From Mesodorylaimus sp. YZB2_4 (Eukaryota; Nematoda; Enoplea; Dorylaimida; Dorylaimidae): a stretch of DNA of 64,000 nucleotides. The notes below the pieces were generated by a model. It made no database searches. It was given only the letters and a program-made list of their open reading frames with translations, and was not told the DNA's origin. Of this stretch, positions 6,090-64,000 are shown piece by piece. The stretch's first letter is position 1, and each line of letters starts with the position of its first letter. The stretch covers positions 62,001 through 126,000 of the forward strand of contig JASANH010000167.1 of the NCBI GenBank assembly GCA_030248295.1, written 5' to 3'. The position numbers and the translations under genes were made by a program.

Positions 6090-9000
6090 TTAACTGGACG
6101 CAGCCCCGTTAGCCTTGGGCGGACCACTAGCCGTGGGCAAAGGGGCGAAATACTGATGTCCACCACGTTCATGCAAATACTTGAATCGACCCTGTTTGGT
6201 TTCGACTGCCGGCACATGCTTGGCCACTCCTTGCACTAATTCACCAGCCACGCAGGGTTGTGGGACGAAAGTGATTGGATGCGGACCGAATGTCTCGCTG
6301 TACATGGTCTTCACGTCCATACGCCCACTGGGTGGTGTGTAAGCTTGACGAGGTTTGACGGGTGTGCTCTTCTCGACGTGCCTGGCCTCTTGGAACTGGT
6401 CTCGATACATCGATTTAGTGTCCATTGCACCACTTAAGCTCAGATTATCTTGGGGGCGTCGCACTTCGTAGCGTTCACCACGAACCACGTGTTGGAAGGA
6501 CTCCTGGTGCACTGAGCTGATCGGTGTCGAAGTGCCCAATGGTTTGGGGAGCGTGTCGGTCGGTTTCTTCACGTCAAATCGTTCACCTTGTGTGTGATGG
6601 AAAGTTTCCTTGGAGACTGTGGTTGCGTCGAATGAACCATCTGATTTTTGGATGTTGTCCGTCGGACGTTTTGGTTGGACCCGTTCGGCTTTTTCTTGCT
6701 AAAATGAGGATGATTAGTGGGCAAAGCTTTGAAACGTAGCGTGTGCATGTCAGTGATGACTGCGCTTTACTGAATGTGCGCACCTCCAGGAGGTGTCTTG
6801 TAGGTATGTACATGCGTGCACCTACGCTTTACATACACAGTATACCATACATTTGAAGGCATATTATGTTTCAAATGACAGCTATAGTTATTCTCAAATT
6901 GTCATCCGTTTGATATTGTTCTTGAACCCAGCATATATACCTATGTATAGAAGTATATAACACACACAAATATTTATATATATATGTACATACACTATAT
7001 ATATATAGATATACTGTAGTGTATGTACTGATATATATAGTGTATGTATAGTGATATATATAGTGTATGTAAAGTGCATATAAATAAATTTATATAATTT
7101 ATATATATAAATTTATAAATATATATATATATATACATACATATATATACATTTACTTATATAAACATATGCATGCACATATACATATAGATGTACAAAT
7201 GTAAGCAAATAAATATACTATGCATATAATGTTAGATGGAATGAATGATGGGATATATATATACAGACTGCACAGATACAAATACAATATATTGAATAGC
7301 TGTTTGAGCATGCGAACACATTCTGAGACAGATGACATAAGTTTTATTGGCTCCCTTTTGCACTAACGATCAGGTAAAACTGAATGGTTTCAGATTGACG
7401 TTCGTGGTTTGGGGTGTGGATTAGATTAGCTAGTTTTCACGCTATCCATTGGAGCATCTGGTTTACTTTTGAGCGTATAACCATAAATAGTCAGAGATTC
7501 AGCGCTAGCATTTCACTGAACGAACCAGTCTGCATTGAACGAAGGGGCAGAGCGCATCGTTAGCCTAGTTTATTGGACTAGCATTGTTTCAGCGTTATGA
7601 CACGTCCTCATAGGCCAGCTGTTTGTCAAAATCGTTGGACTTTAATGAAACGGGACCAAAGTGCTAGTAATTAAACGTGAGTCTTTTGTCAATGTCTTTA
7701 GACACAAAAGTTAAAGGAAATTTCGCACTTTAGTCTGCGTTTTTTGCTGTTCGTCGAACAAGATTTTGTTGAAGATTACGTTAACAGAGAAAATTTCGTT
7801 GCGTTCCGCTAACGCCCAGCCAATTTGTAATGAATGGCTTGGGCAGTTGTTCGACGAGATTCACACAATTTTATTTGCTGTTCGCGGAACAGCGTTTGGA
7901 TAACGCGCATAATAACGATGGATTAGGGCAGCTGCTTTGAGCGGGTGGTTGCTAGGTATAAAAAAGGTGAGCCAGAGCTTGCAGCACAGACAAAGTTTTC
8001 GACAAAGTAGGTAGCAGATCGACTGAACTGAAGATCGAAGTGTCAAAATGAAATCCCTTTTTTGCGTGTTCCTTGTAGCCACGACTTGGCTCGCGGACAG
8101 CTGGACAGTGAGAGCAGCGCCATCGAATGCTTTGGTCATTAGGACTGCGAGGCAAGGTATGTACAAAACGGAATTAACCTTATGTCGGGATTTACTGAAT
8201 GCCTGCCTGAAACTATATTTTGAGACAGGTGCAGCTTTAAAAACGACTGGTGGCGCCACAACCATGCATGTGTAAAATATAGTTTCAGGCAGCATCTGCG
8301 CAGGCTGTAGATGCTGTGTAGGATAAGGTAGGCCAGGTTTGCACCTCAGAAGCAGCGGCATGGCAGGAAAAGAAATCAGTGACAAGTGGACCGCGAGGAG
8401 CACTGCATTATTGCTGATTCTTGCATTCTAGCCGCTGCGCCATCCGTTTTTGGTGATCTGACTCTCAATAACGAAACCAGCAGTGTTTCACTGATTTTGG
8501 GCATCAGTTCGCCATGGGAAGACTTCATCACACCAGCCCCCACCGTCATCGCTCTCCTCGGTCAACTGATGGTCATCTCGGGAAAAGTCGATTTTTCACT
8601 GGTACCAAACGCTCCTAATGGCGGTTTCAAATATATGCGTCATCCTGAGTCGTTTCGCGCCTCTTTGGTTCAAGTCAGCAACGATGGTTGGGAGGCGTTC
8701 ATGAACGCTCATAGGAACATGGATAAAATTCAATTGTACATGCAGCAAATTCCAGCCCAAGTAAAAACGGCCATGAAGCTTTTGTCTCAAGCATCGCCCA
8801 AACTGATCGCTCGTCTTCTGCCCATATCTTTAAATAAGATTCAAGAAATAGGCACCACGTGCGTCGCACTATCGGCAGAAACTGAATTGAAATTCGGCAA
8901 CGTTATGCTTTTGTTGGGCGAACTGTTGGCGGTCACCGAAAGCAGTCGAGGAACGCACCAACAGAAACTGGCCGAAGTTCAAGCCGAGTTGAATGTTACA

Positions 9001-12000
9001 GCCATTCAGAAACAACATTTGGAGAGGATTGGAGAAGAATTAAGAAAACATCAAGAAGCGATCGATCAGGAAGTGAAAAAATATCGTCAACAGTACGACA
9101 GCGCTCTTCGCGAGATTCCGACCGGCTGGCGCGCCATTGCTCAAGATCTGGGACGCGCCATGGTGAATTTTGTCAATATCGCCCCTCAACTGCTCGGCAT
9201 GGGATGGCTTCGTGGGGGATCAGGTAGTGGCGGCAATGCGGGCACGATCGGTGGTGGACCATCACCAGATTTTGAAAAATCAAAAAGTTTTGGTGTTATT
9301 CAAAATTTATTTAATACTGTATCAAATCTCAAAACTATTCTCGCAAATTTTTTCAATGGAATTATGCAACCTGGATTGGGCAATCCGGCTGAGATGCCAG
9401 CAGCGTTCACTACCGTTTTGAACACTTACAAAAAAATGCTGAACACTGAATCGCCAAACGAAATTGGTACGCAAGCATCAGAATTCATCAACGAAGGTAA
9501 AGATATTTGTCAAGAATTACAAGGTTTGCTCAGCCAATATCCGATGCGTTCGGCCAACGAGTCTGAGCAGGCTCAAATAAACGCTCGTTTGGACAGTCTG
9601 TTGAATTCAATGAAGCCCTTGGTCGCACAAGCGTCCACGATGATTGGTGGATTGGCGACTGGACAAGGAGGCAGCAGAGAGGGCGGTTCTGGAGGCGGTA
9701 GCGGCCCCTCAACCACAGGCGGCAACGAGCGGTTCAAAGCTGAACTAGCGCGAGCTCGTTTGAGAGATGCAGAAAGTCGCTATGATCAAATTTTTGGCGA
9801 AATGTTGAAATATCACAACGAAATGAAAGAGCTGGTTAGCAAAATGGCATCACTTAATATAAACGAAATTAATTTCAAAGAGATCTTGGAATTACTGAAA
9901 CAAGGCATCAAGATTCTAGCAAAGATTCGAGAACAATGGGGAAAATTGGTTCAATTTTTCTCTCTCGTATCAGTTAGAGCTCAAGTGGCTTTGAATGGCA
10001 CCTTGTCCACATTTTTAGAACATGCTAAAACTGCTGAACAAATGATTGGCGAAGCTGGTTTGAGTCAAGAAGACCGCGCATTCTTCCTGAATCAATTGCG
10101 AGACCAAGCGGGCGATATCAACCAGGTAACTTAAACTGAGCTGTCTGACGATGAAAAGATGTAGTTCCTTTGCTACCATTTCAGGTCGCCTACTTCCTTT
10201 ACACCCTGTCAAGCACCTATTTCGATGTGTCAACTCGTTTCTTGATGAATCGCTTGGCTGGGCTGGCACAAATGCTAGCTACCGATAATGAGGCCGATCG
10301 AGGCAGGCTCTTGATTCAATTGCGGAACGACGCGGATTCTGCCCAAGATGCCATCAAAGAAATGTCTCAGCGAAAACGTCAAGATTATGAAAATTTGATC
10401 AGTGCCAGAAAACGAGAATTAGATAATGTGATTGAGAGATTGGGTGGTCCCAGTGAGAATGATAGGCAAGCAATTCAGACAGCTTATGGAAATTATTGAG
10501 CTGTCTTGAATCGTAGAGTATCGTTTTAGTGATAGGGTTTTTGGCGCCTTAAATTTTGGATGCCACGCAAAAATAATTACGGCACTATTTTGCAAAAGCA
10601 GTTTTGCCCGAGCCCAATAAAAATTTAGAGTGTGATTCTAAAAAACGAGTGAAAACAGTTTTGAGTTAATCTTGACTGAAACATATCAGCCCCTGATGAC
10701 CTTATCAAAATACATATATGTGCAGTGCGAAATGAAAGAATTCTGATAACTGGCATGAATTAGCAGTAAAATTTGTGCCTGTGCCTGAACTACGTACATG
10801 CAAATTAAAAAAAATTGCAGGCTGTACCTTGAAAGTGGATTGATAAACTGTCGTTGCGTCCAGGCCGCCCTCCAATTTTCCAATGTTATCCTCTGGTTTG
10901 CGCACATCGTATCGTTCGCCTTTAACGTGTCTGAAGGACTCTCTGTTGACTGTTGTCGCATTCAATGCTCCTTCGGCCTTTTGGATACCATCTGCTGGTA
11001 CCCGTTTTTCATATCGCTCACCCCGCGTATGCTTGAAAGCGTCCTTGGAACTCGTGGTTGCATCAAAAGTTCCTCCTGATTTTGGCATTGAGTCAACGGG
11101 CCGCTTTACTTCTGCTCGATCTCCTTTGGTGTGTTGGTGATAGGCCGATTGATAACTGGTACTTGTGTCCAATTTGCCATCGTTCTTTAGAGTATCTACT
11201 GGGCGCTTCGGATCGTAACGATCGCCTTTGGTCGCTTTGTAAGCCTCTCTGTGCATTGTTGTGCCTTCAAATGAACCATCTAATTTTTGGATGGAGTCAT
11301 TCGGACGTTTTGCTTCCTGTCGTCCACTTGTTGACGATCCTGTGAAATTTTCTTGATACATTGTTCGTGTATCGAGTTCTCCGTCAGATTTCGGGAAATT
11401 ATCCTTGCGTTTCTTCATGTCGTATCTTTCTCCTCGCGTTTCTTTGAAGGTTGCTTTGTTGACTGTGACAGCATCGAATGCACCTTCCGCTTTTGGTATG
11501 TTATCTTGTGGTCGCTTGACATCGTAACGCTCCCCTTTAGTCGCTCTGAATGACTCACGATTGACTGTAGATCCTTCAAATGCTCCACTAGATCTTTGAA
11601 TGGAATCAGTGGGTTTCTTAGCTTTAGCTCGTTCCATTGACGCACCACCAGTAAAGTTTTGTTGGTACATTGTCCGCGTATCCATTTCTCCATCAGATCT
11701 GGGGAAGTTATCCTTTGGTTTCTTTACATCATATCGTACGCCTTTGGTCTCCTTGAACGACGATCTGTTGACAGTTGTGCCGTCAAAATTGCCTTCCAAT
11801 TTCAAAGTGTCCTGAGGCCGCTTAGTCTCATAGCGCTCTCCTTGGATGACTGAGTAAGCCTCTTTATGAATCGTTGTGGCATTGAATGAGCCTTCTTGTT
11901 TAGGAAAACTGTCTTGTGGTCGCTTGACTTCGTAGCGGTCGCCTCGAGTCTCCTTAAATGTCTCTTTGTTTACAGTTCTTGTATCAAAATTGCCTTCAGC

Positions 12001-15000
12001 TTTTGCAATGGAATCCACAGGTTTCTTAGCTTTCGCACGCTCAGCGCTTGAATCTCCAGCAAAGGCATCTTGGTACATTGTTTTCGACTGCACAGCACCA
12101 CCTGCTTTCAGAAACTGATCTTTTGGGCGTTTGGTCTCATACCGTTCACCATGAGTGGCCTTGTAAGCTTCTTTATTCACTGTTGCACTATCGAATGAGC
12201 CTTCAGCTTTTATGAATGTATCAGTAGGTTTCTTCGTATCGTATCGCTCCCCTTTTGTAGCCCTGTATGATTCCTTATTTACAGTGGTGCCGTCGAAGGA
12301 ACCTTCAATTTTCTGAATTCCATCAGCTGGTTTCTTCATGTCGTATCGTTCTCCTCTGGCCTCCTTGTAGGCTTCTCTGTTGACTGACAGGCCCTGAAAT
12401 TCGCCTTCTGGTCTTGATAAGTTATCAACTGGACGTTTAGGCACAGCACGTTCTGCAGATCCTGCCACAAAGCTCTCTTTGTACATTGTCTTTGATTCGA
12501 GATGTCCCTCATTCTTTAGCGTATCTTGTGGTCGCTTCATTTCATATCGTTCTCCATGCGAAGCTGTAAAAGCTTGCTTATGAACTGTGGTCCCATCAAA
12601 AGCTCCTTCTGGTTTCGGAATTGATCCTTCTGGTCTTTTTGCCTCAAAGCGCTCTCCTTTTGTGACAGTGTAGGTGGTTTGGTTTATAGTAACTGCGTCG
12701 AACGCTCCTTCAGACTTTGGCATCATGTCTTTCGGCCTTACTGCATCGCAGCGTTCTCCTCGCATTTCTTTGTAGGCCTCTCTGTTGACAGTGGACGCAT
12801 CAAAAGCACCTTCGTTGCGTGATAAATTATCAGTTGGCCGTTTGACAGTCACTCGTTCAGTTGCTCCAGATCCAGTAAAATTGTCCTGGTACATAGTTCT
12901 TGTTGTGATCTCGCCCTCTGATTTTGGGAAGTTATCTTGGGGACGCTTAGTCTCGTATCGCTCACCCTGAGTGACTATGTAAGCTTCTCTGTTTACAGTT
13001 GCGCTGTCGAAATGACCCTCTTGCCTCAAAGTATCTTGAGGCCGTTTCACATCATATCGTTCCCCTTTTGTTGGTTGATACATCTGTTTGTTCATAGTCA
13101 CACCATCAAATGACCCATCGACTTTCTCAATACCATCTCGTGGTCGCTTGACTTCATATCGTTCGCCTTTCGCCTCCTTGAATGCTTCTTTATTTACTGT
13201 AGTCGCGTCAAAGACCCCTTCAAATTTTTGGATGCCATCAGCTGGTTTTTTTACATCATATCGATCCCCGCGAGTCTCTTTGTATGTGTCTCTGTTGACA
13301 GTTGAAGAATTGAATTCGCCTTCAGGTTTTGACAAGTTATCAGTCGGTCGTTTTGCCACTGCTCGCTCAGCAGAGCCTCCTGCAAAGTTCTCTTGGTACA
13401 TTGTCCTGGCTTCAAGATCTCCACCCTGCTTCAAGCTATCTTGCGGACGTTTTGTTTCATATCGTTCTCCTCTAGTCTCCTTGAACGCTTCCCTGTTCAC
13501 AGTGGTCGCATCGAATATTCCTTCTGCTTTGGGGATCTGATCAGCTGGTCGTTTGGTCTCATATCGCTCGCCTTTGGTTTCTTTGAATGATACCCTATTT
13601 ACTGTGGTAGTATCAAAAGCTCCTTCCAGCTTCTGGATAGAGTCGATGGGTATTTTAGCCTTTGCTCGTTCTGCAGAAGCATTAGCACTAAAATTTTCCT
13701 GGTACAGAGTTGTCGCTTGAAGTTGTCCATTGGGTTTTGGAAACTGATCTTGTGGTCGCCTTGTCTCATACCTCTCCCCATGAGTGGCCACAAAAGTCTG
13801 TCGATTTACAGTCGTTGAATCGAATTCCTCTCCAGATGTAAGTTTCAGTTGATCTTCAGGTCTTTTTACATCATACCTTTCCCCGCGGGTTTCCTTGAAT
13901 GCTGTTCTGTTCACAGTACTCCCATCGAAATTGCCTTCTAACTCGAGATTGTCGTCAGGACGCTTTTTCTGGTGCCGGTCCCCAAGAGTGGCCACGTATG
14001 CCTCCTTGTTGACTGTAGTCGCATCAAATTCTCCTTCAGGTCTGGGAAAATTATCTTGTGGCCGCTTCATTTCATACCTTTCTCCGCAGGTTTCCCCTTT
14101 GAACGCTTCCCTGTTCACAGTAGTCGCATCAAAATCTCCTTCTGATTTAGGGATCTGATCAGCTGGCCGTTTTGCGTCATATCGCTCCCCTTTGGTTTCT
14201 TTGAATGATTCTCTATTGACTGTTGTTGAATCAAACGTGCCTTCAAGCTTTTGAATAGAGTCGACTGGCTTTTTTGCCTTTGCTCGTTCTGCAGAAATAT
14301 CCCCACTGAAATTTTCTTGGTACATGGTTGTTGTTTGAATTTCGCCATCTGATTTTGGAAACTGATCTTCCCGCCTATCCACCTCTCCCCTTTAGGGAAA
14401 CAAAGCCTCTTATTCAATGGTTGTCATTTTTCCCGCGCTAGCTTTAGTTGATCTTCAGGCTTTTTTACATCATATCTTTCGCCACGTGTCTCCTTGAATG
14501 TTGTTCTGTTCACAGTACTCCCATCAAAATTGCCCTCAAACCTAAGATTGTCTTCAGGGCGCTTCATCTGGTATCGATCCCCCTGGGTGACCACATACGC
14601 CTCCTTATTGACTGTAGTTGAATCAAATTCACCTTCAGATCTTGGGAAATTATCTTGTGGACGCTTTGTTTCATATCGTTCTCCTCTAGTCTCCTTGAAC
14701 GCTTCCTGGTTCACAGTGGTTGCATCGAAAATTCCTTCTGATCTGGGGATTTGATCAGCTGGTCGTTTTGTCTCATAGCGTTCGCCTCTGGCTTCTTTGA
14801 ATGCTTCCCTGTTGACAGTGGTCGCATCAAACACTCCTTCATGATGTTGAATAGAATCAATTGGCTTTTTTGCCTTCGCTCTTTCCACACAGGCATCACC
14901 AGTGAAATTCTCCGAATACATGGTTTTTCGTTGAAATTGTCCACCTGGTTTTGGAAACTGATCTTGCGGTCGCCTTGTCTCATACCTATCACCTTGAGTG

Positions 15001-18000
15001 GCCACAAAAGTCTCTCGACTTACAGTTGTTGCATCGAACTGCTCCCCAGATGTAAGTTTCAGTTGATCTTCAGGCCTTCTTACATCATACCTTTCACCTC
15101 GAGTCTCCTTGAATGCTGTTCTGTTCACAGTACTGCCATCAAAATTTCCCTCAAACCTGAGATTGTCTTCAGGGCGTTTCATCTGGTATCGATCTCCATG
15201 AGTTGCCACAAAAGCCTCCTTGTTGACTGTGGTCGAATCAAATTCACCTTCAGGTCTTGGAAAACTATCTTGTGGACGTTTCATATCATATCGTTCCCCG
15301 ATGGCCTCCTTGAACGTTTCCCTATTCACAGTGGTTGCATCAAAATTTCCTTCTGATCTGGGGATTTGATCAGCTGGACGTTTTGTCTCATATCGTTCAC
15401 CTCTGCTTTCTTTGAATGCTTCCCTATTGACAGTGGTCACATCAAAACTACCCTCTGGTTTTTGAATAGAATCCACAGGTTTCTTTGCCTTGGACCTTTC
15501 TATACTCATATCGCCAGTGTAAGCATCTTGATACATGGTTGTCGAATAGATCTCACCATCAGGTTTTGGGAATTGATCTTGAGGGCGTTTTGCTTCATAT
15601 CGTTCGCCATGTGTAGCAATGTACGCCTCGCTGTTAATGGTGGTTGCATCAAAAACACCATGCGCCAACTGAAGTTGATCTGCTGGCCGTTTCATGTCAT
15701 ACCGTTCTCCATGAGTGACAATATAAGGCTCTTTGTTCATAGTCGCTCCATCGAATTGTCCTCGAGATGTAAGCTTCAGTTGATCTTCAGGCCTTTTCAC
15801 ATCATATCTTTCGCCACGTGTCTCCTTGAATGTTGTTCTGTTCACAGTACTCCCATCAAAATTGCCTTCAAACCTAATATTGTCTTCAGGGCGCTTCATC
15901 TTGTATCGATCCCCTTGAGTGGCCACATAGGCCTCCTTATTGACTGTAGTCGCATCAAATTCTCCTTCAGGTCTGGGAAAATTATCTTGTGGTCGCTTCG
16001 TTTCATACCTTTCTCCACGAGTTTCCCCTTTGAACGCTTCTCTGTTCACAGTGGTTGCATCAAAATTTCCTTCTGATCTGGGGATCTGATCAGCTGGTCG
16101 TTTCATTTCATATCGCTCACCCATGGTTTCTTTGAATACTTCCTTATTTACAGTGGTCGCATCAAAAGTTCCCTCAGGATGTTTAATAGAGTCGACTGGT
16201 TTCTTTGCCTTTACTCTTTCCACAGAGATATCACCAGTGAAATTCTCCTTATACATGGTTGTGGTGTGTAGTTCTCCATCTGGTTTTGGAAACTGATCTT
16301 GTGGTCGCTTTGTTTCATACCTCTCCCCATATGTAGCCACAAAAGCTTCCCTGTTTACTGTCATTGCGTCGAATAGCTCTCCAGATGTAAGTTTGAGTTG
16401 ATCTTCTGGTCTTCTTGCATCATACCTTTCACCACGAGTTTCCTTGAATGCTGTTCTATTCTCAGTGCTTCCATCAATATTTCCTTGGAACCTCAGATTA
16501 TCTTCAGGGCGTTTCATTTTGTATCGATCCCCTTGGGTGGCCACATACGCCTCCTTGCTGACTGTAGTCGCATCAAATTCTCCTTCAGGTCTGGGAAAAT
16601 TATCTTGTGGTCGTTTTATTTCGTACCTCTCTCCATGAGTTTCTCCTTTGAACGCTTCCCTGTTCACAGTGGTTGAATCAAATTTTCCTTCTGATTTTGG
16701 GATCTGATCAGCTGGTCGTTTAGTCTCGAATCTTTCACCATGTGTAGCAATGTACATCTCGCTGCTGACAGTCGTGGGATCAAACCGGCCAAGCTCCAAC
16801 TGAATTTGATCTGCTGGCCGTTTCATGTCATACCGCTCTCCATGGGTGACAATATAAGCCTCCCTGTTAACAGTCGTTGCATCAAACTGACCATCTGTCC
16901 CAAGCTTCAATTGATTGGATGGTTTTTTCATATCATAGCGGTCTCCTTGAGTGGCAATATAGGCTTCTTGGTTTACAGTTTTCGATTCAAAAGCACCTTC
17001 TGGTATTTGAATTCCATCTTGTGGACGCTTGACGTCAAATCTTTCGCCCCTAGTTTCTTTAAATGTTTCTTTACTGACAGTTCTAGCGTCGAAGTCGCCT
17101 TCAGGTCGTTGGATACTATCTGATGGTTTATTGGGCTTTGATCGTTCTGCAAGTAATTCTCCAGTAAATGTATCTTGATACATGCTCTTTGATTGAGTGA
17201 CACCTTCTAGCCTGGGGAACTGATCTTCTGGTCGTTTCACTTCATAGCGGTCACCTTTGGCTGCTTTAAAAGCTTCTCTTGAAATAGTTGTACTATCGAA
17301 ATCTCCTTCAAACTTCAGGCTGTCTTCTGGACGCTTCACCTGGTACCGTTCTCCATGCGTGTGGATAAAGTCATTTCTGTTCATCGTCCTTGCGTCAAAT
17401 TCGCCTTCCAGCTTTGGAAACTGATCTTGTGGTTTCTTTAAATCATAACGTTCACCTTTCATTTCCCTATACGTTTCTCTGTTCACTGTAGATGCAGCGA
17501 GCCCCCCTTCAGGTTTAGGGAACTGATCTGCAGGTCGTTTTAAGTCATAACGTTCCCCATGCGTGGCGATATATGACTCCATATTTACAGTCTTTCCTTC
17601 GAATCCACCCTCAGCTAGTGGAAATTGATCTGATGGGCGTTTTGTCTCATATCTATCGCCTCGCGATTCTTTGAAAGCGTCTTTGGAGACAGTGGTGGCA
17701 TCGAAGGCGCCTTCAAGCTTCAGAGTGTCTTCTGGTCGTCTCATTAGATATCTGTCGCCATGAGTTGCTACAAAAACTTCCTTATTGACAGTTGTGGAAT
17801 CGAACTGGCCTTCAGGCTTGGGGAATTGGTCCACTGGTCTCTTCAGATCATAGCGCTCTCCACGCGTCGCCACATAGGCATCTCTGTTGACTGTTTGGCC
17901 TTCAAAATCTCCCTCATTTTTTAAATTATCAGCTGGTCGTTTGACATCGTAGCGGTCTCCTGTTGTGGCGATAAAGGACTGGTTGTGAACTGTCGTTGCA

Positions 18001-21000
18001 TCAAAGACACCCTCAGGCCTTTGAATATTGTCCATGGGCTTCCTTGCTTTTGCTCTCTCGCCAACTAATTCGCCTGTGAAATTTTCTTGATACATTGTTC
18101 GTGAATTTACTTCTGCATCTGGTCTCGGGAATGAATCTACTGGTTTCTTCATTTCATATCGATCACCTTTAGTTTCCTTGAATGCTTCCTTACTTACAGT
18201 GGTGTCTTCAAAACAACCTTCTAATTTTAAACTGTCCTCCGGTCGCTTCATTTGATATCTTTCCCCTTGAGTGGCGATGAACGCTTCTTGGTTGACTGTT
18301 TTTCCATCAAAATCTCCTTCTGGCTTTGGAAAAGAATCAGCAGGGCGTTTCGTTTCATATCGCTCTCCACGGGTGGCCGTGAAGGCTTGTTTTGAAATAG
18401 CGGTACCATCAAAGTCACCTTCTTGCTTTAGGCTAGCTTCGGGACGCTTCAGTGGATACCTGTCTCCCTGTGTGGCCACATAGGCTTCTCTGTTTACTGT
18501 CGTGGCATCGAACCCGCCTTCAGGTTTTGGGAATTGATCCTGCGGGCGTTTAAGATCAAACCTTACTCCTTTGGTTTCTTTGAAGGCCTCCCGGCTCACT
18601 GTAGATGCTTCAAAACCACCATCAGGTTTGGGGAACTGATCAGCTGGTTTCTTCAGGTCATATCTTTCACCTTGTGTGGCAATATAAGCTTCTTTGCTCA
18701 CTGTCGTGGCATCAAGAGCGCCTTCTGGTTTCGGAAACTGATCCTGCGGCCTCTTTAGGTCATATTTGTCTCCATGAGTGGCTGTATATGCCTCTTGGTT
18801 GACTGTCCTTCCATCAAATCCACCTTCGGGTCGTGGAAATTGATCTGCTGGGCGTTTTAGATCGTAGCGTTCGCCTTGTGCAGCCACAAAAGCTTTTCTA
18901 TTTGTTGTTGTCGCATCAAAGGTGCCTTCGGATTTTGGGAACTGATCTTCTGGTCGTTTCATGTCGTACCGTTCGCCTTTAGTCTGCTTAAAAGCGTCTT
19001 TGCTGATTGTGAGTGCTTGAAAGTCTCCTTCAAGTTTCAAGCTGTCTTCAGGACGCTTGAGGGGATACCTATCTCCCTGTCTGGCCACATAGGCTTCCAT
19101 GTTGACCGTGATGGCATCGAATTCACCATCTGGCCTTGGAAATTGGTCAGCTGGTCGCTTTATGTCGTACCTTTCTCCATGAGCGGCTATGTACGCTTCC
19201 ATATTGACAGTCTTGCCATCGAAGTCGCCTTCCGGCCTTGGGAAGGTATCCTGGGGTATTTTCACGTCATAGCGGTCACCTTTCGTCACAGTGAAGGTTT
19301 GATTGTGGACAGTTGTTGCATCGAAGGAGCCTTCTGGCACAGGGAAAGAATCTTGTGGTTTCTTCAGTTCATATCGGTCTCCCTTGGTGACGACGTAAGT
19401 CTGATTATGAATTGTGCTCGCGTCGAACTGGCCTTCAAGCCTCAAATGGTCTTCTGGTCGCCTGACATCGTATCTGTCTCCTTTGGTCTCCTTGTATGCT
19501 TCGCGATGGACTGTGGATGCATCGAATGCACCTTCCGCTTTTTGAATGCCGTCTATAGGCCGCTTGACGTCGACTCGGTCGCCCCTGACATGTTCACCTG
19601 TGTAATTCGCTTGGTACATGGTGGTAGTGTCCAGATGACCATCCAATCTTGGAAATGTATCTTGGGGTTTCTTGAGCTCGTATCGCTCACCTTTGATTTC
19701 TTTGAATGTTTCTCGATTTACAGTTGACCCTTGAAAGGCTCCTTCAAGTTTGGGGAATCCATCTTCAGGACGCTTCATTTCGTAACGATCTCCTTTGGTC
19801 TGCTTGTAAGTTTCTTTTGAAACTGTTGTTCCTTCGAAGGCACCTTGCAGTTTTTCGTAAGTATCTTCAGGCTTTTTGGCCGACACGCGCTCACCACGAG
19901 CACCAGTAAATGTATCTTTGGCAACAGTACTGGCTTGGAATGCTCCTTCGATTTTGGGAAACTGATCTTTCGGTTTTTTCGCATCGTAACGGTCGCCTCT
20001 CGTCGCTTGATATTTTTCTTTGTGTTCAGTATCTGATCGCATTTTTCCACCACTCACCAGCCGAATCTGTTGGTTTGGTCTTTTCGGCACTTCGCGTTCA
20101 GCTTGCTTGGGCGAATATTCTTCTTTGTAAGCACTTGCTAACAAGTGCATGTGTCCTTCGGTTTCCAATTTGAGTTGGCTCTCTAACGGTGGTCGAATTG
20201 GCTCGGAGCGGGAGGCGTTCTCGTGTTTAATATAGTCAGTCTGCAAAGAAAAATGTCAGATATTTTTGAATTGGCGTGAAAGAAGAAGGTGTCAGTTCTG
20301 ATAACTTTTAACGTGAGTGGTGAGAAGATACACATTTGTGAGCTGTGTTTAATATGTTCAGTTTCGGAACCGTTTTGGTAATTTAGTATGATATTTTGCT
20401 TATTCCTTGACTTTATCTTTTCCTTGTAACATCATCAACTGTTTCGTATCCCAAAGTTGCGCCTTGGTATTACGATAAAAAAGCATGAATACATGAATGA
20501 AGTGTGTGCAAAAATAGATGCATGTTTTTCAAGTAAAACTAGTAAGTCCATTGATGTTTACAAAAAAACAATATCCTGCAATCTAAAAAAATCCTGTGCA
20601 TTTAACCCGCCACATTAGGACAAGATTATTTTTTTCGCATTGGAATATCTTTTTAAAGAACTTTTGCAATGGCTTTTGGATTATTTTCAATTTTCCTATG
20701 AAAGATCCTTTGGATTATATTGATAAAAGTAATAAAAAGTGGTAAAATTCCAGAAAGCCTTATAATTAACATACATATTGCTATTATGATCTCCCATGCC
20801 AAACATCAGATAACTGATAGGTACTGTCTCTTATCCTCCAGGCTGTAAGCTTATCAAGACCATGGGCAATATGACACACTTTGCCCCCTCATCAGCCACT
20901 CGCCTACTGATCCTGGCTCCAGGCTCCATGTTGTAACATACGACAGATAGTTATTCTAAGGTTCATGGGGCGGCGGGTGCAGGCTGATCTTACAAGCGAG

Positions 21001-22432
21001 AGGTCCAAGATCTTCTACAGTATAGCTAAAGTCTGGTATAAGGGATTATCCTGCGGAGTATCGATTGCTGAGACCCTGATTCCTGCAGCAGCTCTCTGGG
21101 GTGCCTGCAACTGCTCTGTGCAGTGATACACTTTCCTGGCTGCTGGTCGAATGCACCCAGTCCTAAGATGCCTACGCTGGTGAACAGTGCCACTGTCCAT
21201 TGCACAGTAAAGACCCCAGACAAAACCAAAAGATCCTTTAAGAGCACAGCAATGCACGACGATGTCTCAACAGTCCAGGAGACCCGCAGTCCCGCAGACT
21301 CGACGTCTTACCCGCAGACAAACCATGCACCTGGCCTGGAGTCAACTCCTGGACTCTTCCAGTGTGAACCAAAGAGAGATGGCTGCAGAAGGTCCCTTGA
21401 AAGTATGCTAATCGAAGTCCCTGACCCAGTTCCTCCCCACTGAGCCAGCTGCCCGAGCCACAACCTAAGAATTCTAGGCGCCATCAAGCGGCAAAAGTCA
21501 CAACACCGAACTATTGCCCCTCACTTATGAACCCATGCCGGGCTGCTGGTCTACAATACAGTCTTACTGTTAATTGGGTGTCTTCTATCTACTGTGAAAA
21601 ATTGAACATGTGATATCTGCTTTTCCTGGGCCACAATGCTCTGAGGTAACAAGTTTGCAGTTCTAGCAAACCAGAGTACTTCCCTAAGTGGACTGTTAAA
21701 GACCAAGTACACTCTAGAATCGACGTCGGAATATTGAACAAGAATATGATGATTAGATTCACCACCCACGCGCGCCAAAATTCTAGACCCCCAGTACGTA
21801 TTCAAAAACAGTCGGAATTCTTGATTGCAAAGGGGGACTATTAGGAAATGAAATTTTCGACTTCCTTAAATAATTGAGATGGCGGTCCAAAATTATTACT
21901 ACCCCATCAAGTGCTGAATCTGAATATCATGCTCTTTTTTTACTATTCTGACATCGATTACATTGTATGATTGGTCTTCACTCAGAGCGCATTAAAATCT
22001 GCAGCATAAGTATGTGCACCACTATGCCACATGCACAAAGCTGTGTGCTATGCAGTTCAAAAGTGCGAAACATTAACGTTTCAGAAATTACCCCTTCTGC
22101 AAATTACTAGCTCATACACACATCCACGCCCACACTAGGCCTACCTCTCTTTGCCCAAAGTCACTCACCTTTTGCACACTATCCGTCTCGATCGTTCCAC
22201 TGTCCAACCGTAATGTTTCTTCTCTTTTTACTACACTTTGTTGACTCGATTTGATTTCTTCAATTTGAAATTGCCTGTAGGTTTCTTGCGTTACTGTTTT
22301 GCCATCGAAATAACAAGCTCCACTGGCCCCGTTCGCTCCATCTCCTCCCACGGATGCATTTGTCGGATCCAACTGACTTTTCGGGTAGACTGGTGTTGGC
22401 CTCACGACGGAAGCAGATTTGGTCGAGAATTC
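6090..22432 (-). CDS. Giant SAXO/Mn-module-like protein (stabilizer of axonemal microtubules type), frame broken once
   Basis: Visible coding exons run 22432-22169, 20240-14424 and 14382-10828 (separated by a short frame lesion), and 6698-6090. All real junctions are GT-AG in phase 0. Together they encode about 3,400 residues. By reading I count about 95 units of 33-36 residues with the pattern GERYDxKRPxDxxPxxEG, then FDATTVNREAF. This matches the Mn module of SAXO (FAM154) and MAP6/STOP proteins, which bind and stabilise microtubules. The usual SAXO has around a dozen modules, so this is a large expansion. Some units carry a TMYQENFTG variant that marks the end of higher-order repeats. The C-terminal ~80 residues are non-repetitive. 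No ATG precedes the first visible exon, so at least one upstream exon is missing. A plus-strand gene lies within the last intron (6699-10827). Microtubule function is inference from family. Confidence 0.82.
6893..7340. repeat. TA-rich microsatellite tract in the last intron of the SAXO-like gene
   Basis: The stretch is dominated by TATATA and TGTATGTA-type repeats, including several repeats of TATATATAGTGTATGTA around 7000-7080. It is non-coding and lies between the final SAXO-like exon and the nested plus-strand gene. Confidence 0.75.
7957..7965 (+). promoter_or_regulatory. TATA box of the nested secreted-protein gene
   Basis: TATAAAAAA lies about 90 bases upstream of the ATG at 8048. An initiation site near 7987 is plausible. 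Its position supports an independent promoter inside the host gene's intron. Confidence 0.6.
8048..10499 (+). CDS. Secreted alpha-helical protein, nested in the SAXO-like intron; family not firmly recognised
   Basis: Three exons: 8048-8156, 8432-10125 and 10185-10499. Phases (1, then 0) match, giving 705 residues. Residues 1 to about 23 form a signal peptide ending VRA before AP. The mature protein is almost entirely predicted helix, with heptad-rich stretches around residues 215-260 and in the last 100 residues. Two glycine-rich linkers (about 297-314 and 447-468) divide it into three helical blocks. A PTGW motif near residue 266 follows the first coiled coil. I recall uncharacterised helical proteins of invertebrates and fish with a similar GW motif after a coiled coil. 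Their layout recalls alpha-helical pore-forming proteins, but that link is weak and no function is claimed. It has its own TATA box and AATAAA and lies opposite to its host gene. Confidence 0.85.
8203..8292. mobile_element. Short MITE in intron 1 of the nested gene
   Basis: About 90 bp bounded by an inverted repeat: CTGCCTGAAACTATATTTT on the left and its near-exact reverse complement on the right. The same termini bound a 174-bp copy at 26881-27054. Confidence 0.6.
10616..10621 (+). terminator. Polyadenylation signal AATAAA of the nested gene
   Basis: AATAAA about 115 bases after the stop codon at 10499. It falls just before the host gene's exon donor on the opposite strand (10828). Confidence 0.65.
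14383..14423 (-). other. Frame-breaking lesion between the two halves of the SAXO-like array
   Basis: The upstream frame runs through a normal unit (KKPEDQLKL), then reaches a TGA at 14424. The array resumes in another frame near 14370 (EDQFPKSDG). The intervening bases still resemble the expected repeat, including the traces ACAACCATTGAA and GAGGCTTTG, but with several single-base insertions or deletions. There is no usable GT-AG pair. Sister units elsewhere in the array are intact, so this is either a local consensus error in near-identical repeats or a real disabling mutation. Confidence 0.8.
14440..16800 (-). repeat. Higher-order repeats (about 610 bp, six units) inside the SAXO-like array
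   Basis: In this part of the big exon the units recur in a fixed order of types: KAKKPxDSIQ, KRPADQIPRSEG, KRPQDNFPRPEG, MKRPEDNLRFEG, RPEDQLKLTSG, then RPQDQFPKP ending in MYQENFTG. The six-unit block is about 204 residues. I see about four blocks here, one with two extra units, and a further one or two on the other side of the frame lesion near 14.4 kb. Similarity between blocks is visibly higher than between neighbouring units, which points to recent block-wise duplication. Confidence 0.75.
20241..22168 (-). other. Intron of the SAXO-like gene
   Basis: On the minus strand the donor is GCAAAAG before GTGAGT and the acceptor is CTTTGCAG before ACTGAC. Both sides are phase 0. It contains one TA-flanked MITE (21710-21965). 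Other open frames here have no support. Confidence 0.8.
21710..21965. mobile_element. TA-flanked MITE, copy 1
   Basis: 256 bp with long imperfect terminal inverted repeats, starting CACTCTAGAATCGACG and ending GACATCGATTACATTG. Each end is flanked by TA, as expected of Tc1/mariner-type targets. The internal ends read AATATTGA..AAGAATATGAT and its reverse complement. Related copies lie at 53373-53694 and 58904-59121. There is no coding capacity. Confidence 0.7.
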
Positions 22433-25400
22433 CTAAATGGCGGAATAGCATATTCTAGACAGTATTTTTTGAGTGATTATGGCGGGGTCATATCCATATG
22501 TACGCCGTTACTATGTCTGAAGGCGGTTCCTAAGGAAACTCTTGACGGGAGTGTTAGGCACTGGCGAGTCGAAAGGTAGGCCGTCCATAAAAGGCTAACA
22601 TTTAATACAAACAGGCAAGTCAAACATCACTTGGCAACCGATTTACACGAAGAGGTAGAGCAGAATTTGAGAATGGAGGCAGTAGAATGCATTCGATAGA
22701 AGAAACTTGGTCGATGCAATTCACGTGCACGCGAAACGCGTCTCAGACTCGGGCTTGGATATTGATCAGCGACGAGAATAAAGCCACTGGCATATCCATA
22801 TAAGGCGCGGCAGGCAGGGAAATATTGCCTGTCGGATGCACTGACTGGCGCATATACGACGAAAAACATGCAAAAAAACAATCTACTATCTCTCGCTGGA
22901 CGTGGCAGCTGGAGATTTAAAATCTATCAAAATCGATTGGTTGGACATTTAGCGAAAAGGATTAAAAACAGAAGGAATCGCCTAGGCGATTGCTTTCTCA
23001 CACGCCACCCACCAACAAGCCCATATATGCTAGAATGTAAGCAAGCCAGGCCCGTTTAATCGTTAGGCAACGGGCCATCTGGCGATGGAATGCTTGCTGA
23101 GCTAGCTGGCCCGACTGACTCACGTACAAGACGGGGAGACGAATCCGCGGGGAATCGTGTCTAATAGCAACATGAAAAGGTGCTTAGGAAAGAATCGACG
23201 AAAAAAAGCTTAGCTAGCTGACGTGTTGCCAATATTTACGCCAAGAAATTTTAGCAGCAAGGAAGCTGTAGTGGGAAACAGGGTGCAGATTGACTCACGA
23301 TTGTTGGCCGCCTCCCCTCTCCTCTCTTGGAAGTCTTGATGAGGACCGTAGCTCTAGCTCCTCGAAGCACTCTTCTTGAGTTAATACAAAATGAGCAGAG
23401 GAAACGAGAAACGTGCCACGAAGAAGCAGGGAATGAGAGAAATGAGGAAAGCGTGCTTTGAAAGGCGTGGATGGAATACGACAGGGAAAATAGTGAATTG
23501 GGGAGATAATAAGCGGGAATGAGGGAATCCAAGGTTGGGTCATTAGAAATTCATGGAATCAGGAGCGAAAGTGGGCAAGTAAACAGCAATGAGCTGATAA
23601 TTTGGTCACACTTTTTCAAAAGTGACAAAGTCGTGAAAGTGCCGAATCCTTCTGTCAACTTGAGGTGGCTCATCCAGCAGTTATTTCTGTCAGCTCCAAA
23701 AGGATCGCGGACACTTTTTCATTTATTAGCCATGCTTTTCAGTGTTGACTACAGTATATTGTCCGATGATGGAACATACTAAAATCTTATCGATTCTTTT
23801 GTCAAACAGGGTTACGTACTCTTGTTTTTTTTTGCCTTTTAGGCAGCATTTGAGAACAGCCTAATCGATGCGATAATTTGCACTACCATACTTGTAAGTC
23901 ATACAAAAACCAGTTCAGACAGAAAAACGAATTAGACACTGAACTAACCGTACTGTAAGGGCTAACAGCTGTCAAGGCCAGGACCCAGGGATAAGTTTCA
24001 ATCAGTCCACATTCTATCCCAAATTAGTGATTCTGGACCAAAATGGCTGGAATCTGATCATTGCGACAGTGCTGCTGAAAAAAAAAGGCTCCCGAGAAAA
24101 TCGCACCAATCAAAGCGCTGAAGACATTTTACCAAAACTGTGCTTATCATCTGCTTCAGCATTCAACTCTTCGACCTGCTTCTGTTCAGGTTCAATACTG
24201 CCTTCTTCAGTTCAGGTACTATCTCTGAGGTAGACCTCTCAGGACCACAGTCATGAACAGAGGAGTGCGGAGACAGAATGAAAAATTTAATCAGTAGAGC
24301 TTGTCTCTGACTTCAAAAGTTGAAGTTGAAGTTAAATTTAAAATTAAAGCTTGACCTGATCGATTTGACAGTGTCACCGTGGTAGCTATAGTAGACCACA
24401 CCGCATGCAGGCGGAGTTAGGACAGTCAGCTGGTGGGACGATCTAGAGGGAGAAAGGTCCGGAGGACCAGCTGGCCAGTAACACCTCATCACCACACCTT
24501 ATCAATCTCAAAATTTTAGTCAATGACTACTCCATAAAAAATATTTGCTACAAGCTAACTTCGCATCTGATGCAATCCTGGTGCTTTATTTGGCGTCGAA
24601 GAGTTTTTGCATTCCTTACATCAGCTCACACAAAGATGATCTGAAAATGACTTTTTCTTCGCTCCAAACTAGGACTTTGGGCTCACTAATCGCACCTTTC
24701 GCCAGGATTTTACAAAATTCGTCAAACCCCCTTGAAAAAAAATCAAAAGCGGCTTTTCTCGCGGCTGGTGACAAACAAACCAGAAGCGGACATTTTTGCG
24801 AGGTCCCATTTTTGTCAGATCACCTTGTCACGCGAGAGTGACAAAAAACGTGCCACGTACCTCTGTGTAGACAGAATGCTGCAGAATGGCAGAACCATTA
24901 TTCTGGTCTAGCAGAATGTGACTCGGCAGGTGCTGATGTTGGTTGTGTGGGCAACGATGGCGTCTAAAAGAAGAGTAGTGCATTGTGACTGCATTGGTGG
25001 ATGCGGAATCTTTTGAAATAGGCATGCTACCAATAAGATTTGCTTCATATTTTATGAACAAAATCATTTTGCAACCTCACCCGCAAGTGCAAATTTGACA
25101 AATACATTGGTGAACCATTTTCATGAAGTTTCAAATAAATTTGAAAAAACCAAAGTTTCCGAGTTGTTTGCTGAATGAATTCCTCCAAGTAAGGATCAAA
25201 TTACTAAATTGGTGCCTTTGTTGTCTTTGGTACCGTTTGACCAACCTAAATCACATAAAATTATGATCTCATATTTCTAAGAAAAGTAGTCATTTCGCCA
25301 ATGTCAAACATTGTCTGCCAGCCTCACCGAAGTGGCAGTATGGAGGATAGAAACGGATCTGTCAGCATATGCGTGCCTAGGTAGGCGAAATGGCACCATT

Positions 25401-61700: not shown

Positions 61701-64000
61701 TGTGGATGAAACTGGTGGGTTTGGAACAACATCGCTGACTTCGTGTGCGGGGGGGGTCTGATCTTCTTCCGGGGGGGGGGGGGTCGGCGACATGGCGGCC
61801 CATTTTGGTTGCGTTTAAAAATTGAATTTTTTAAATTAAATTATCCCGCGAAAATTTAAATTTAGTTTGGGCCTTCCAAGGCAAAACACTGGGTCTTTTT
61901 ACTATAAAAAATGAAACCTTTCTTTTGGGGTTGGGGGTCTAAAATAGCAAAGGTACCTGCCACAACCTCGCCGGGCGGGACAGGAGGGTCTTCGCCGTGT
62001 AAAAAAATTTTCTACTGCCAAAAATAGTAGGGGGGGGGGGGGGGAACAGTAAAGTTGGAAATAGGGACGGGCATTAGCACCTGTCCAAGCAAGACCTGGG
62101 GAGGATCAGGAATCGATGGTTTGGAACCTCAGAAGACTTCTTTAAAAATTGTTTATGTATCGCGACCAGTTTACACTAAAAAATTGCCTTTGGCCTAATA
62201 TAAAAATAGGCAAGCCGGAACGAGTCGCTCTCAACGAACAAAATCTGTTCTTGATTTTTTCTCGGTTCTGTCAGAAGTCATGTCAGAAGACACAAATTTA
62301 AAGATAAAGTGCAATGTAGAGTCGATGTGGTTTATGCTGGCGCGGCTTATGCTGACAACGACTGAAAGACGAATAGTAATCTGGCTGGGAAACAATAACC
62401 CATCGAGTTGATGTTTCAGCCGCAGATTTAATTCTAGAACACCTCGACATGTATTACCGACTTCAGCATGTGGCTCTCTGAGGATACCCCGTGTGGGAAG
62501 ATAACGCACTGAATATACTTCCTAATCGGGGAATGCACAAAGGCCCTTGTGCCCTGTATTGGAGCCATGAGCTCTTAGTTTCTACGTCTTCTCACTCAAC
62601 TTTGACTTGGATTTTAGAGGCGACAGCAGCTGGCCGAATTGGAGAAGAATATCAAAGCGACCAAGGAAAAGGCGTTGGAGGAGGCGGAGACGGACTCGTT
62701 GGTGACGGGCACAAGCAGCTTGGCGGGTATGTAGTGGCAACTAGTGTTCGACTGGGGCCCTGTCCCTGAGACACATGTATTGGCGATTCACCCCCTGAAA
62801 ACGTTCCCACAGTGAGACAAACGAAAGGACCCACTTGACATAGGTGGCACAGACAGGCGGACTGCGAGACTTGCGAAGTTTTCTCTTATCCCCCCCCCCC
62901 CCCCCCCGAAGATGCGCATCAGTTTTCTGATTGAGACCGGGTTGGAGGGGGCGTATGTTACATATAACCGTGGGCTGAACTGCGTAGCCAGTGCAGGGCA
63001 AGTATACTGCAAGTAAATGTTTCTTTGTGAATTTAAACTCGAGGCCTTGGTGCAGACAAGTGGAGGTAGAAGGGAGCAATTGATCTCGTTAGATGAAGTG
63101 AGGCTAGTTTCCCACCATTTGTTAATTTGAATTTTTGAAAAAATTTGCATGAGCGCATTTAAAAAAGGCAATAATTTCTTATGTAGCTTTCGTTGTGTAG
63201 AAATTGAGACGTCTTTACAGCGACATTTTCAAAGGAACAAGAAGACCAATAAATTACTCAAATAAGACATTATTTATTATATTTTCTATTTTCGACGTTT
63301 CGTCTTAACTCAAGACAGCAAAAAGGATGGTCAATGATTTTGACCACGGTCAATGATATCTTGTTTGACTAATTTATTGGTCTTCTTGTTTCTTTGGAAA
63401 TGTAGCTTTGGTTGTGTCGGAATCCATCGTCTTGGGGTTGATGGGGGCCTGAGGACCCTTGTCAAATAATTAGGGGCTCCAACTATGACTCGGCTGGTTT
63501 TCAGGGGACGTGACGATGGAACCACGATTGGACGAACTGGCGGCCGAATCGCCGATGGGTGCGGACGAGAACAGCAATAGTATTCTATTGCAGCAGGACT
63601 TACAGTTGAGCGAGGGCGAAGACATGGACGAAGACGATGTGTTCGCTCAGGAGACCGCACCAACAGATTTCAGTCAGTTGCACGTCGAATCGACGTCGAC
63701 TCGAGAGAAAACGAGCGCGTCGTCGTCGCTGCCCAAAGTGGCTGGTGTGGCTGACGTGGAGGAGTTGGAGGAAGGGGAGTTGATGGAGGAGGGTGCCAGG
63801 ATGGGCGACGACGAGGAGGACGAGGACGAGGAGGCGGCCAAGCGATGGAAGGCCAACATCGCGGACATGTTGGATCGGAGCGATATGGGAAGGACGGGGA
63901 GACTGCACACCGACCTGGCCATGTCCGACTCGTCGGGCTCGGATCGGGACGAGGAGGGCGAGGAGGAGGGCGACGATGGGACACCCGCCTCCAAACGACC
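43727..64000 (+). CDS. TAF1: TAF1, largest subunit of TFIID (truncated by the window edge)
   Basis: Twenty-five in-phase exons: 43727-43810, 44010-44175, 44665-44763, 47074-47135, 47450-47578, 47895-48125, 48672-48860, 48911-49172, 49720-49803, 49885-50135, 50605-50787, 51041-51217, 51466-51639, 53088-53278, 54660-54774, 54842-54992, 55050-55261, 56055-56198, 56254-56370, 56895-56973, 57029-57128, 58098-58212, 59241-61022, 62618-62726 and 63505 to the edge. They encode at least 1,900 residues. The order matches animal TAF1: [16 protein letters not shown]-binding start, [12 protein letters not shown], the central DUF3591/acetyltransferase-like core (about 520-1030, with [45 protein letters not shown]), zinc knuckle [16 protein letters not shown] near 1300, bromodomains near 1480-1575 and 1590-1700, and an acidic tail. 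Both bromodomains keep the acetyl-lysine-binding Asn (YNG and FNG). TAF1 scaffolds TFIID at core promoters. Confidence 0.97.
44893..45890. mobile_element. 998-bp hAT-like non-autonomous element in TAF1 intron 3
   Basis: Terminal inverted repeats CCAGCATCGACCGACCC on both sides are exact. They are flanked by a perfect 8-bp direct repeat GTTACAGT (44885-44892 and 45891-45898). An 8-bp target duplication is characteristic of hAT transposons. No transposase frame is present. Subterminal GATCCGGCC-type repeats are dense on the left. Confidence 0.85.
45993..46085. mobile_element. Miniature relative of the hAT-like element
   Basis: 93 bp starting CCAGCATCGACTGATCC and ending GGATTGGTCGATACTGG. The ends are inverted repeats related to the 998-bp element 100 bp upstream. 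The flanking octamers ATCCTAAG and ATTCCAAG are 6/8 identical, consistent with a decayed target duplication. Only GGTCGG-rich subterminal sequence remains inside. Confidence 0.65.
47579..47894 (+). repeat. GATC-rich TAF1 intron 5
   Basis: Most of this 316-bp intron consists of GATCGATC, TGATCA and ATCGAT variants (for example ATGATCGATCGATCGTGATC). The pattern recurs more strongly in intron 8. Confidence 0.6.
49173..49719 (+). repeat. GATC/ATCGAT-rich TAF1 intron 8 (degenerate satellite)
   Basis: Nearly the whole 547-bp intron is made of degenerate units of roughly 20 bp such as CATGATCTGATCATCGATAA. The motifs are mostly self-complementary, so both strands read alike and many small hairpins are possible. 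The intron has a normal GTAAGT donor and TTTTTCAG acceptor. Confidence 0.75.
51640..53087 (+). other. TAF1 intron 13
   Basis: A 1.45-kb intron, donor AGG before GTAAGT and acceptor TATGTTTTAG. Contains no feature I could support as a gene or known repeat. Confidence 0.7.
53373..53694. mobile_element. TA-flanked MITE, copy 2 (TAF1 intron 14)
   Basis: About 320 bp. The right end AATATTCTGACCTCGATTCT and following AGAGTG are the inverted complement of the left end of copy 1. The left end is more decayed (TAGAATCTATGTTGGAATAT). The interior shares AATTTTGACTTTTT and GAATTTTGGGTGCT with copy 3. Confidence 0.65.
54405..54550 (-). repeat. tRNA-derived SINE, copy 2 (TAF1 intron 14)
   Basis: On the minus strand it reads GTGGCCTAGCGGTTAAGGCG (A-box region), then GGGTTCGACCCCCGCC (B box), then the family body ending TATGGATAAAGTACGGC. 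The head resembles a Ser/Leu-type tRNA, but the cloverleaf is not intact. Confidence 0.7.
54993..55049 (+). other. 57-nt TAF1 intron that keeps the reading frame
   Basis: It has GTAGCC at the donor side and CATTTCAG at the acceptor side. Removal restores the family alignment (DFKRLGPG then [12 protein letters not shown]). Its length is divisible by three and it has no stop, so retention would add 19 residues, including a glycine run from an 11-G tract. It could be retained in some transcripts. Confidence 0.65.
55836..55961 (-). repeat. tRNA-derived SINE, copy 3 (TAF1 intron 17)
   Basis: On the minus strand GCCCGGCTGGTGGCCAAGCG, then GTTAAGGCGTCCGCC, then GAGGGTTCGACTCCAGCCCG form the most complete tRNA-like head of the family. 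The body (TTGTCAATCTATG, CTCGAGTGAGC) is diverged from copies 1 and 2. Confidence 0.65.
57810..57950. repeat. Dispersed repeat with GGCTGGGAAACA and GTTGATGTTTC
   Basis: The block GGCTGGGAAACATCAGCCC, then GACGGGTTGATGTTTCAACC, then GCTGATTTAGTTCTGGA recurs at 62380-62500. A fragment (GGGTTGATGTTTCATC) lies near 61425. All copies are in TAF1 introns. The class of the element is unknown. Confidence 0.55.
58310..58500 (+). repeat. tRNA-derived SINE of a second family (TAF1 intron 22)
   Basis: The head GACGCCGTGGCGCAGTGGTT is a pol III A box. About 50 bp downstream, GGGGGTTCGATCCCCGG is a B box. A body of about 100 bp follows and ends in an A/T-rich tail (CCCAAAATTTTTAAAAAATC). It is unrelated in body sequence to the minus-strand SINE family. 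Confidence 0.75.
58786..58835 (-). pseudogene. tRNA 3'-half relic
   Basis: On the minus strand CCCGGGTTCGATTCCCGGTC is a perfect T-arm, followed by GGGCC as an acceptor end. The expected 5' acceptor strand (GGCCCGA) and D-arm are missing, so this is a truncated tRNA-like fragment, not a functional gene. Confidence 0.6.
58904..59121. mobile_element. TA-flanked MITE, copy 3 (TAF1 intron 22)
   Basis: 218 bp, starting CACTCTCGAATTGATGTGGG and ending CTACATCGATTTTAGAATG, followed by TA. The internal sequence GAATTTTGGGTGCTGAATC is shared with copy 2. It ends about 120 bp before the acceptor of the bromodomain exon. Confidence 0.65.
61100..61205 (+). repeat. Decayed copy of the 3' end of the TAF1 bromodomain exon, with donor site
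   Basis: CTCGAGCTGGGAAAGAAAAA, then GGTGGTTGAGGTAAGGGAAT, repeats the real exon end at 60993-61030 (CTCGAAGTGGGGAAGAAGGA, then GGTGGATGAGGTAAGGGAGT). It still encodes [11 protein letters not shown] against [11 protein letters not shown] and keeps GAG before GTAAGG. A second, more decayed copy is at 61570-61690. Confidence 0.75.
61570..61690 (+). repeat. Second decayed copy of the exon end
   Basis: It shares CCTGGGGAGGATCTCGATTC with the copy at 61100-61205, then GGAGGTGGATGAGGTAATGG. The donor is altered to GTAATG. Both copies continue into GGTGACCTGCACTG, so the duplicated unit includes intron sequence. Weaker traces of the leading part (GAGCGCCTGTGCG, GACCTGGGGAGGATCAGGAA) occur near 61268 and 62090. 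Confidence 0.65.
62380..62500. repeat. Second copy of the GGCTGGGAAACA repeat
   Basis: GGCTGGGAAACAATAACCC, then GAGTTGATGTTTCAGCCGC and AGATTTAATTCTAGAACA, match 57819-57880. Similarity continues into GAGGATACCCC. It lies in the TAF1 intron before exon 24. Confidence 0.55.
62890..62907 (+). repeat. 18-C homopolymer in TAF1 intron 24
   Basis: This is the longest of several G or C runs in TAF1 introns. The others are G runs of about 11-15 at 50823, 51394, 55004, 61771 and 62030. Confidence 0.9.

Follow-up and report, generated by a model that had tools for sequence, protein, structure and literature searches.

What kind of protein carries close to one hundred tandem Mn modules, and what would such a protein do? 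The question is raised by a minus-strand gene in a 64,000-nucleotide stretch of contig JASANH010000167.1 (assembly GCA_030248295.1, forward-strand positions 62,001 to 126,000), hereafter the window, where an earlier note had described about 95 Mn modules in one SAXO-family protein of about 3,400 residues, encoded between window positions 6090 and 22432. The gene is predicted here to run from position 25124 to 6090 in five exons and to encode a giant SAXO protein, in which a cysteine-rich N-terminus leads into an almost continuous array of about 98 Mn modules. Its 3,465 readable residues, almost all of them in modules of 33-36 residues, bear out the size originally given. It is proposed, with moderate confidence, that this protein staples the microtubule lengthwise from the lumen, along one protofilament, with sensory cilia as the most likely site; its location, span and function are all argued from analogy. 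Published papers are cited by accession.

Mn array, family membership and gene model

The expression [T/S]x5[F/Y] matches 59 times in the first readable part of the protein and 42 times in the second, and removal of the off-register matches (one in the first part, three in the second) leaves 97 canonical Mn motifs. Adding one degenerate motif (A for T) and the slot that falls in a frame-broken patch gives 99 slots; the count of about 95 was correct for the shorter interval to which it referred. The array fits the minimal Mn unit, [TS]-[TS]-X(4)-[YF], given in a paper on cilia inner proteins (PMC10973386). Spacing between motifs is tight: among 93 intervals, a set that leaves out the first three (50, 39 and 39 residues) and the one across the patch, 34 residues occurs 52 times, 35 residues 23 times, 33 residues 17 times and 36 residues once (mean 34.1, standard deviation 0.7). 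The longest runs of motifs spaced by 33-36 residues comprise 38 motifs in the first part and 39 in the second, compared with four at best in 500 shuffled proteins. Of the 89 slots in the 34-residue register, 88 hold T/S and all hold F/Y, a tally that means only that one register slot is without a motif, the slots having been located by the motif itself. The glycine six residues ahead of the anchor, which was not used for slot finding, is kept in 85 of the 89.

Several lines of evidence place the protein in the SAXO family. The Pfam family SAXO1-2 (PF05217, cut-off 26.5 bits) matches both large minus-strand open reading frames, with 169.4 bits for 14424-20255 (1943 residues) and 115.1 bits for 10705-14391 (1228 residues); the smaller frames at 6090-6698 (202 residues) and 22112-22432 (106 residues) gave no match in the Pfam scan. 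From the 78 possible six-module windows, 40 overlapping ones were aligned, and 28 of these match SAXO1-2 individually (E up to 0.001). A profile of the six-module windows compared with PDB chains recovers SAXO1 (8ou0_D, E 4.8e-17) with the modules in register, followed by weaker matches to two STOP-family axonemal proteins, 9e78_1U (E 0.0056) and 9e2g_3E (E 0.12), and to 8glv_zj, a flagellar associated protein (E 0.23). The family claim of the earlier note, for which a profile search had been suggested as the check, is thus upheld by the Pfam scores, the structural profile and the N-terminal cysteine motif.

The SAXO family is defined by a cysteine motif 1, [GR][KT]CVC[ESR][LI]CTCGK[HC][KR]C, together with tandem Mn-like motifs (PMC3280300). 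Exons 1 and 2 encode such a cysteine motif, CICQICTCGRHRCPH; the stretch HQCICQICTCGRHRC from these exons has identical cysteine spacing, but its letters do not match the expression exactly. In alignment, the N-terminal peptide pairs with the stretch KCVCELCSCGRHHCPH of SAXO1 8ou0_D (E 1.6e-4) and with STOP-family 9e78_1U (E 0.0077). The other main feature, Mn motifs in linear series that carry T/S at position 6 and F/Y at position 12, is represented by the 97 canonical copies. SAXO proteins are further expected to have a Cysteine-Proline pair in the last Mn module; the tail of the giant contains PQPCVAGELV (C followed by V) and that of a compact SAXO paralogue from the same genome PCPAELV. 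The alignment of their C-terminal ends is no better than chance, being equalled by 263 of 2000 shuffles, that of the tails alone by 154 of 2000, and the giant's C-terminus found no match among solved chains at E up to 10.

Other assignments were considered. Prefoldin_3 (36.1 and 33.9 bits, cut-off 23.4) and PET (25.5 bits, cut-off 25) exceed their whole-protein cut-offs; since no individual stretch of the protein passes alone, both are taken as sums of weak repeat matches. SAXO motif 1 and the nematode host speak against an identity with MAP6 or MAP6D1, those proteins being described as vertebrate only and as carrying Mn modules without motif 1 (PMC3280300).

The predicted gene model, with splice sites taken from sequence alone, comprises the following features.

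25081 to 25124, minus strand: exon 1, encoding MKMVHQCICQICTC(G) with the N-terminal SAXO cysteine motif; donor GTGAGG
24861 to 24963, minus strand: exon 2, encoding (G)RHRCPH...HSVYTE; acceptor TTTTAG, donor GTACGT; spliced in frame to exon 3
22169 to 22432, minus strand: exon 3, with one internal Mn motif and one across the exon 4 junction; donor GTGAGT
14424 to 20240, minus strand: exon 4, first part, with 55 canonical Mn motifs and one degenerate; acceptor TTTGCAG
14350 to 14440 (limits approximate), minus strand: frame-broken patch, in which a stop and a frame change interrupt one module slot
10828 to 14391, minus strand: array after the patch, 35 Mn modules; donor AAG/GTACAG, the slash marking the exon end
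6699 to 10827, no strand assigned: last intron of 4.1 kb, containing the plus-strand open frame 8383-10134
6090 to 6698, minus strand: last exon, with four Mn motifs, a C-terminal tail (PQPCVAGELV...) and the stop; acceptor TTTTAG

Exons 1 and 2 together encode MKMVHQCICQICTCGRHRCPH...HSVYTE, and both lie upstream of the interval in the earlier note. The junction of exons 2 and 3 creates the first Mn motif, SVYTEEF, that of exons 3 and 4 creates the motif SVQKTDY, and the modules on either side of the last intron keep a motif spacing of exactly 34 residues; the coincidence of these three features supports the five-exon model. After splicing, the readable parts amount to 2,075 residues (exons 1 to 4 as far as the patch) and 1,390 residues (from the patch to the stop). 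Of the interval 6090..22432, the array proved real, while the start of the gene at 25124 falls outside it and a single frame break interrupts the array.

The last intron also holds two plus-strand frames with glycine-rich stretches, 8383-10134 (583 residues) and its neighbour 10155-10499, for neither of which the Pfam scan gave anything above cut-off; they probably represent a nested gene. Elsewhere in the window, the plus-strand interval 54821-61106 matches DUF3591, a zinc knuckle and a bromodomain in pieces, and these pieces resemble TAF1.

Selection and the length of the array

The duplicated modules are under purifying selection. For 35 similar module pairs (lags 6, 7, 12, 13 and 19; more than 0.75 amino-acid identity over a 24-residue core), a proportion of 0.37 of the synonymous and 0.062 of the non-synonymous sites has changed, giving a corrected ratio of non-synonymous to synonymous change (dN/dS) of 0.127, a value that the choice of similar pairs pushes down. 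Over all 3,916 module pairs, the raw changed proportions are 0.77 synonymous and 0.37 non-synonymous.

Two other origins of the array were rejected. The absence of any exact repeat of at least 80 bases in 10828-20240 argues against a duplicate made by the assembly, the four six-module blocks that were compared being 73-88% identical as DNA. A dispersed repeat family was dismissed in turn: among the matches listed, all 31 genome protein matches to a six-module block, a lower-bound count, fall within the giant gene.

The array bears traces of growth in blocks. Across lags 1-24, mean identity for the complete array peaks at lag 6 (0.496, with 0.488 at lag 12 and 0.479 at lag 13). This signal stems from modules 28-64 (0.63), modules 0-18 (0.50) and 55-91 (0.42) being without a peak. 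Blocks of six and seven modules have been duplicated locally, the closest pairs standing at lags 6, 7, 12, 13 and 19, mostly in modules 30-63. A six-module register of 48 nm over the whole array was rejected, given that the lag-6 peak is confined to the middle and that one distinctive module class is not phase-locked to six. This class, with a tyrosine two residues after the anchor (Tyr+2; TMYQENF... then ERAKAKKPVDSIQ), becomes denser from N- to C-terminus between index 3 and index 93, where index 0 is the motif at residue 105 of exon 4. Its successive intervals are 15, 9, 9, 7, 6, 6, 6, 3, 5, 4, 4, 4, 3, 2, 3, 3 and 1 (Spearman -0.94; 0 of 5,000 random placements equally graded), the statistic having been picked after the pattern was noticed. 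Unequal duplication could be the source of this gradient.

These duplications bear on the strongest alternative, in which the length of the array is a neutral outcome of unequal crossing-over: what counts is the total of modules, and relatives may differ freely in length. Such an origin is a serious, if less favoured, possibility. In its favour, the six- and seven-module blocks are local duplications lying mostly within modules 30-63. The low dN/dS and the tight spacing imply, on the other side, that each module matters, and they are silent on total length. A neutral length would moreover be compatible with a lengthwise staple.

The break in the reading frame

Near 14350-14440, one module carries a stop and a frame change. 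With this interruption in the array, a full-length protein is not proven. If the break is real, the product would be a protein of about 2,075 residues with 59 module slots, terminated in the patch, and the later 39 motifs would be untranslated or would belong to a second transcript. The stop and frame change are present in the assembled sequence, and splicing offers no evident escape from them. The best of 170 in-frame splice candidates over the patch (donor GTGAAT at 14632, acceptor TTCTGCAG at 14288, 344 bases) scores 5.8, in comparison with 4.8 to 6.6 for 16 intact array stretches, eight of which reach 5.8 or more. As intact stretches score equally well or better, nothing marks an intron at this point, although the patch may be a short one. 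The sequence beyond the patch speaks against truncation: the frame remains open for 1,188 residues, with a motif in all 35 slots. Damage confined to one short stretch, with about 9 kb of open array around it, looks more like a consensus error than decay, and for this reason a local consensus error is considered likelier than a real truncation, which is regarded as unlikely. A second copy of the patch locus was not found in the genome, all six DNA matches lying inside the giant gene.

Host, proposed placement and comparison with known systems

The host was taken for a nematode in the earlier note only conditionally, and two protein families agree with that guess: 133 of 137 scored candidates match the cuticle-collagen N-domain and 102 of 129 match the MSP domain (PF00635). 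Many of the MSP-domain matches have equal scores, none above 60.6 bits, and the exact SL1 leader has no match in the host genome; on these two grounds the animal may be only distantly related to the well-studied nematode orders. Nematodes possess sensory cilia and are not known to have motile ones. A doublet-microtubule protein that occurs in non-motile cilia as well, CFAP20 (PMC9633640), is present as four pieces on one contig, two of which read through a stop. The role of such a protein in a nematode, formerly called especially unexpected, appears less so in view of the listing of a C. elegans SAXO (T08G11.3) and of ciliated sensory neurons (PMC3280300). The unexpected aspect is the length of the array, not the occurrence of SAXO in a nematode.

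Mn-containing proteins of known structure suggest how the array might work. In SPM1 of Toxoplasma, T/S and F/Y delimit a short helix at the intradimer interface, with one Mn motif per 32-residue repeat, and all 32 residues are required for a continuous line on one protofilament (PMC8144581); SAXO motifs in human cilia are luminal and 8 nm apart (PMC9564825). By extension, the short helix of each module, between its conserved T/S and F/Y, would dock at the intradimer interface of tubulin, on the wall facing the lumen, each 34-residue module would span one 8-nm dimer, and one molecule of 98 modules would follow a single protofilament for about 0.78 micrometres. The protein would then form a high-avidity lengthwise luminal staple against depolymerisation and breakage, most likely in the doublet microtubules of sensory cilia. 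Owing to this avidity, entry into the lumen might need to occur during polymerisation; MAP6 is reported to enter in that way (PMC9788383). Because published structures put Mn motifs on the luminal wall, with a single-protofilament precedent, a lengthwise staple is preferred over the crosslinker between microtubules that had also been suggested (PMC8144581, PMC9564825).

Several observations weigh against the staple, the patch described above among them. For an isolated six-module block, AlphaFold2 gave a mean predicted local distance difference test score (pLDDT) of 49.6 and no secondary structure (AlphaFold3 likewise gave nothing for SAXO6; PMC13087473). The six motifs of FAP363 are spread over two protofilaments (PMC8144581), so a single straight line is not certain, and other SAXO proteins use about 40 residues per 8 nm (PMC13087473), more than the 34 seen here. 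In the host genome, SPACA9, a partner of SAXO in human cilia, was not found by a search that detected none of its controls. The lack of a tektin match is counted, with the presence of CFAP20, in favour of the proposal; it comes from five candidates in a search where only the Bacillus subtilis control responded, below cut-off and hence with no true positive control. A radial-spoke search, silent in all its controls like that for SPACA9, returned no match in this genome. With CFAP20 present and tektin, radial-spoke proteins and SPACA9 not found, the picture fits, without proving, an animal having sensory and no motile cilia.

In another reading, the protein lines cytoplasmic neuronal microtubules, such as the stable touch-neuron bundles, rather than those of cilia. 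In neurons the Mn protein MAP6 sits in the lumen, and C. elegans neurons are reported to contain luminal material (PMC9788383); the giant, however, carries SAXO motif 1, reported as lacking in MAP6 (PMC3280300), and a cytoplasmic site is considered improbable. It is highly doubtful that the molecule is a true axial ruler, about 0.8 micrometres long, in a non-motile cilium, with the Tyr+2 gradient (modules spaced 15 apart towards the N-terminus and 1-4 apart towards the C-terminus) as a position code along the microtubule lumen.

If the ciliary staple is correct, about 98 consecutive tubulin dimers would be contacted from inside by one protein. It would also provide a natural test of Mn-module number against microtubule stability and cilium length, for which nematode sensory cilia are a simple setting; overexpression of SAXO1 lengthens primary cilia via its Mn modules, according to a review (PMC8131560). 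A description of a long Mn array of this kind was not found in the open-access papers that were searched, and reported motif counts are six for TbSAXO, 12 for PfSAXO and 12 for MmSaxo1 (PMC3280300).

Among known systems, SPM1 shares tandem 32-residue repeats with one Mn motif each and a luminal position on one protofilament (PMC8144581), and differs in having six repeats and in its cortical microtubules. TbSAXO and the STOP-family axonemal protein 9e78_1U share the cysteine motif and Mn-like motifs; the former has six motifs and belongs to a motile flagellum (PMC3280300), and the latter has 266 residues. The C. elegans SAXO T08G11.3 (NP_492403), so named in PMC3280300, is compared by name only. 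Within the host genome, the compact SAXO paralogue (contig 3, locus L018, 6194-7735) has the same cysteine start, CICQLCNCGRHRCPH, followed by Mn modules. It is unlike the giant in its nine motifs (counted by inspection and provisional at two exon junctions), its modules of the TTHRT[DI][FY] type and its PCPAELV tail. The existence of this compact locus indicates that the genome has more than one SAXO, the giant being an additional, expanded gene. The closest counterpart is SAXO1 of human and mouse (FAM154A; 8ou0_D), which has an N-terminal CxCxxCxCGRHxCPH and tandem Mn modules in the same register. SAXO1 carries 12 modules (PMC3280300, PMC8131560) in 477 residues of the PDB chain, whereas the giant is predicted to carry about 98, roughly eight times as many, in about 3,500 residues.

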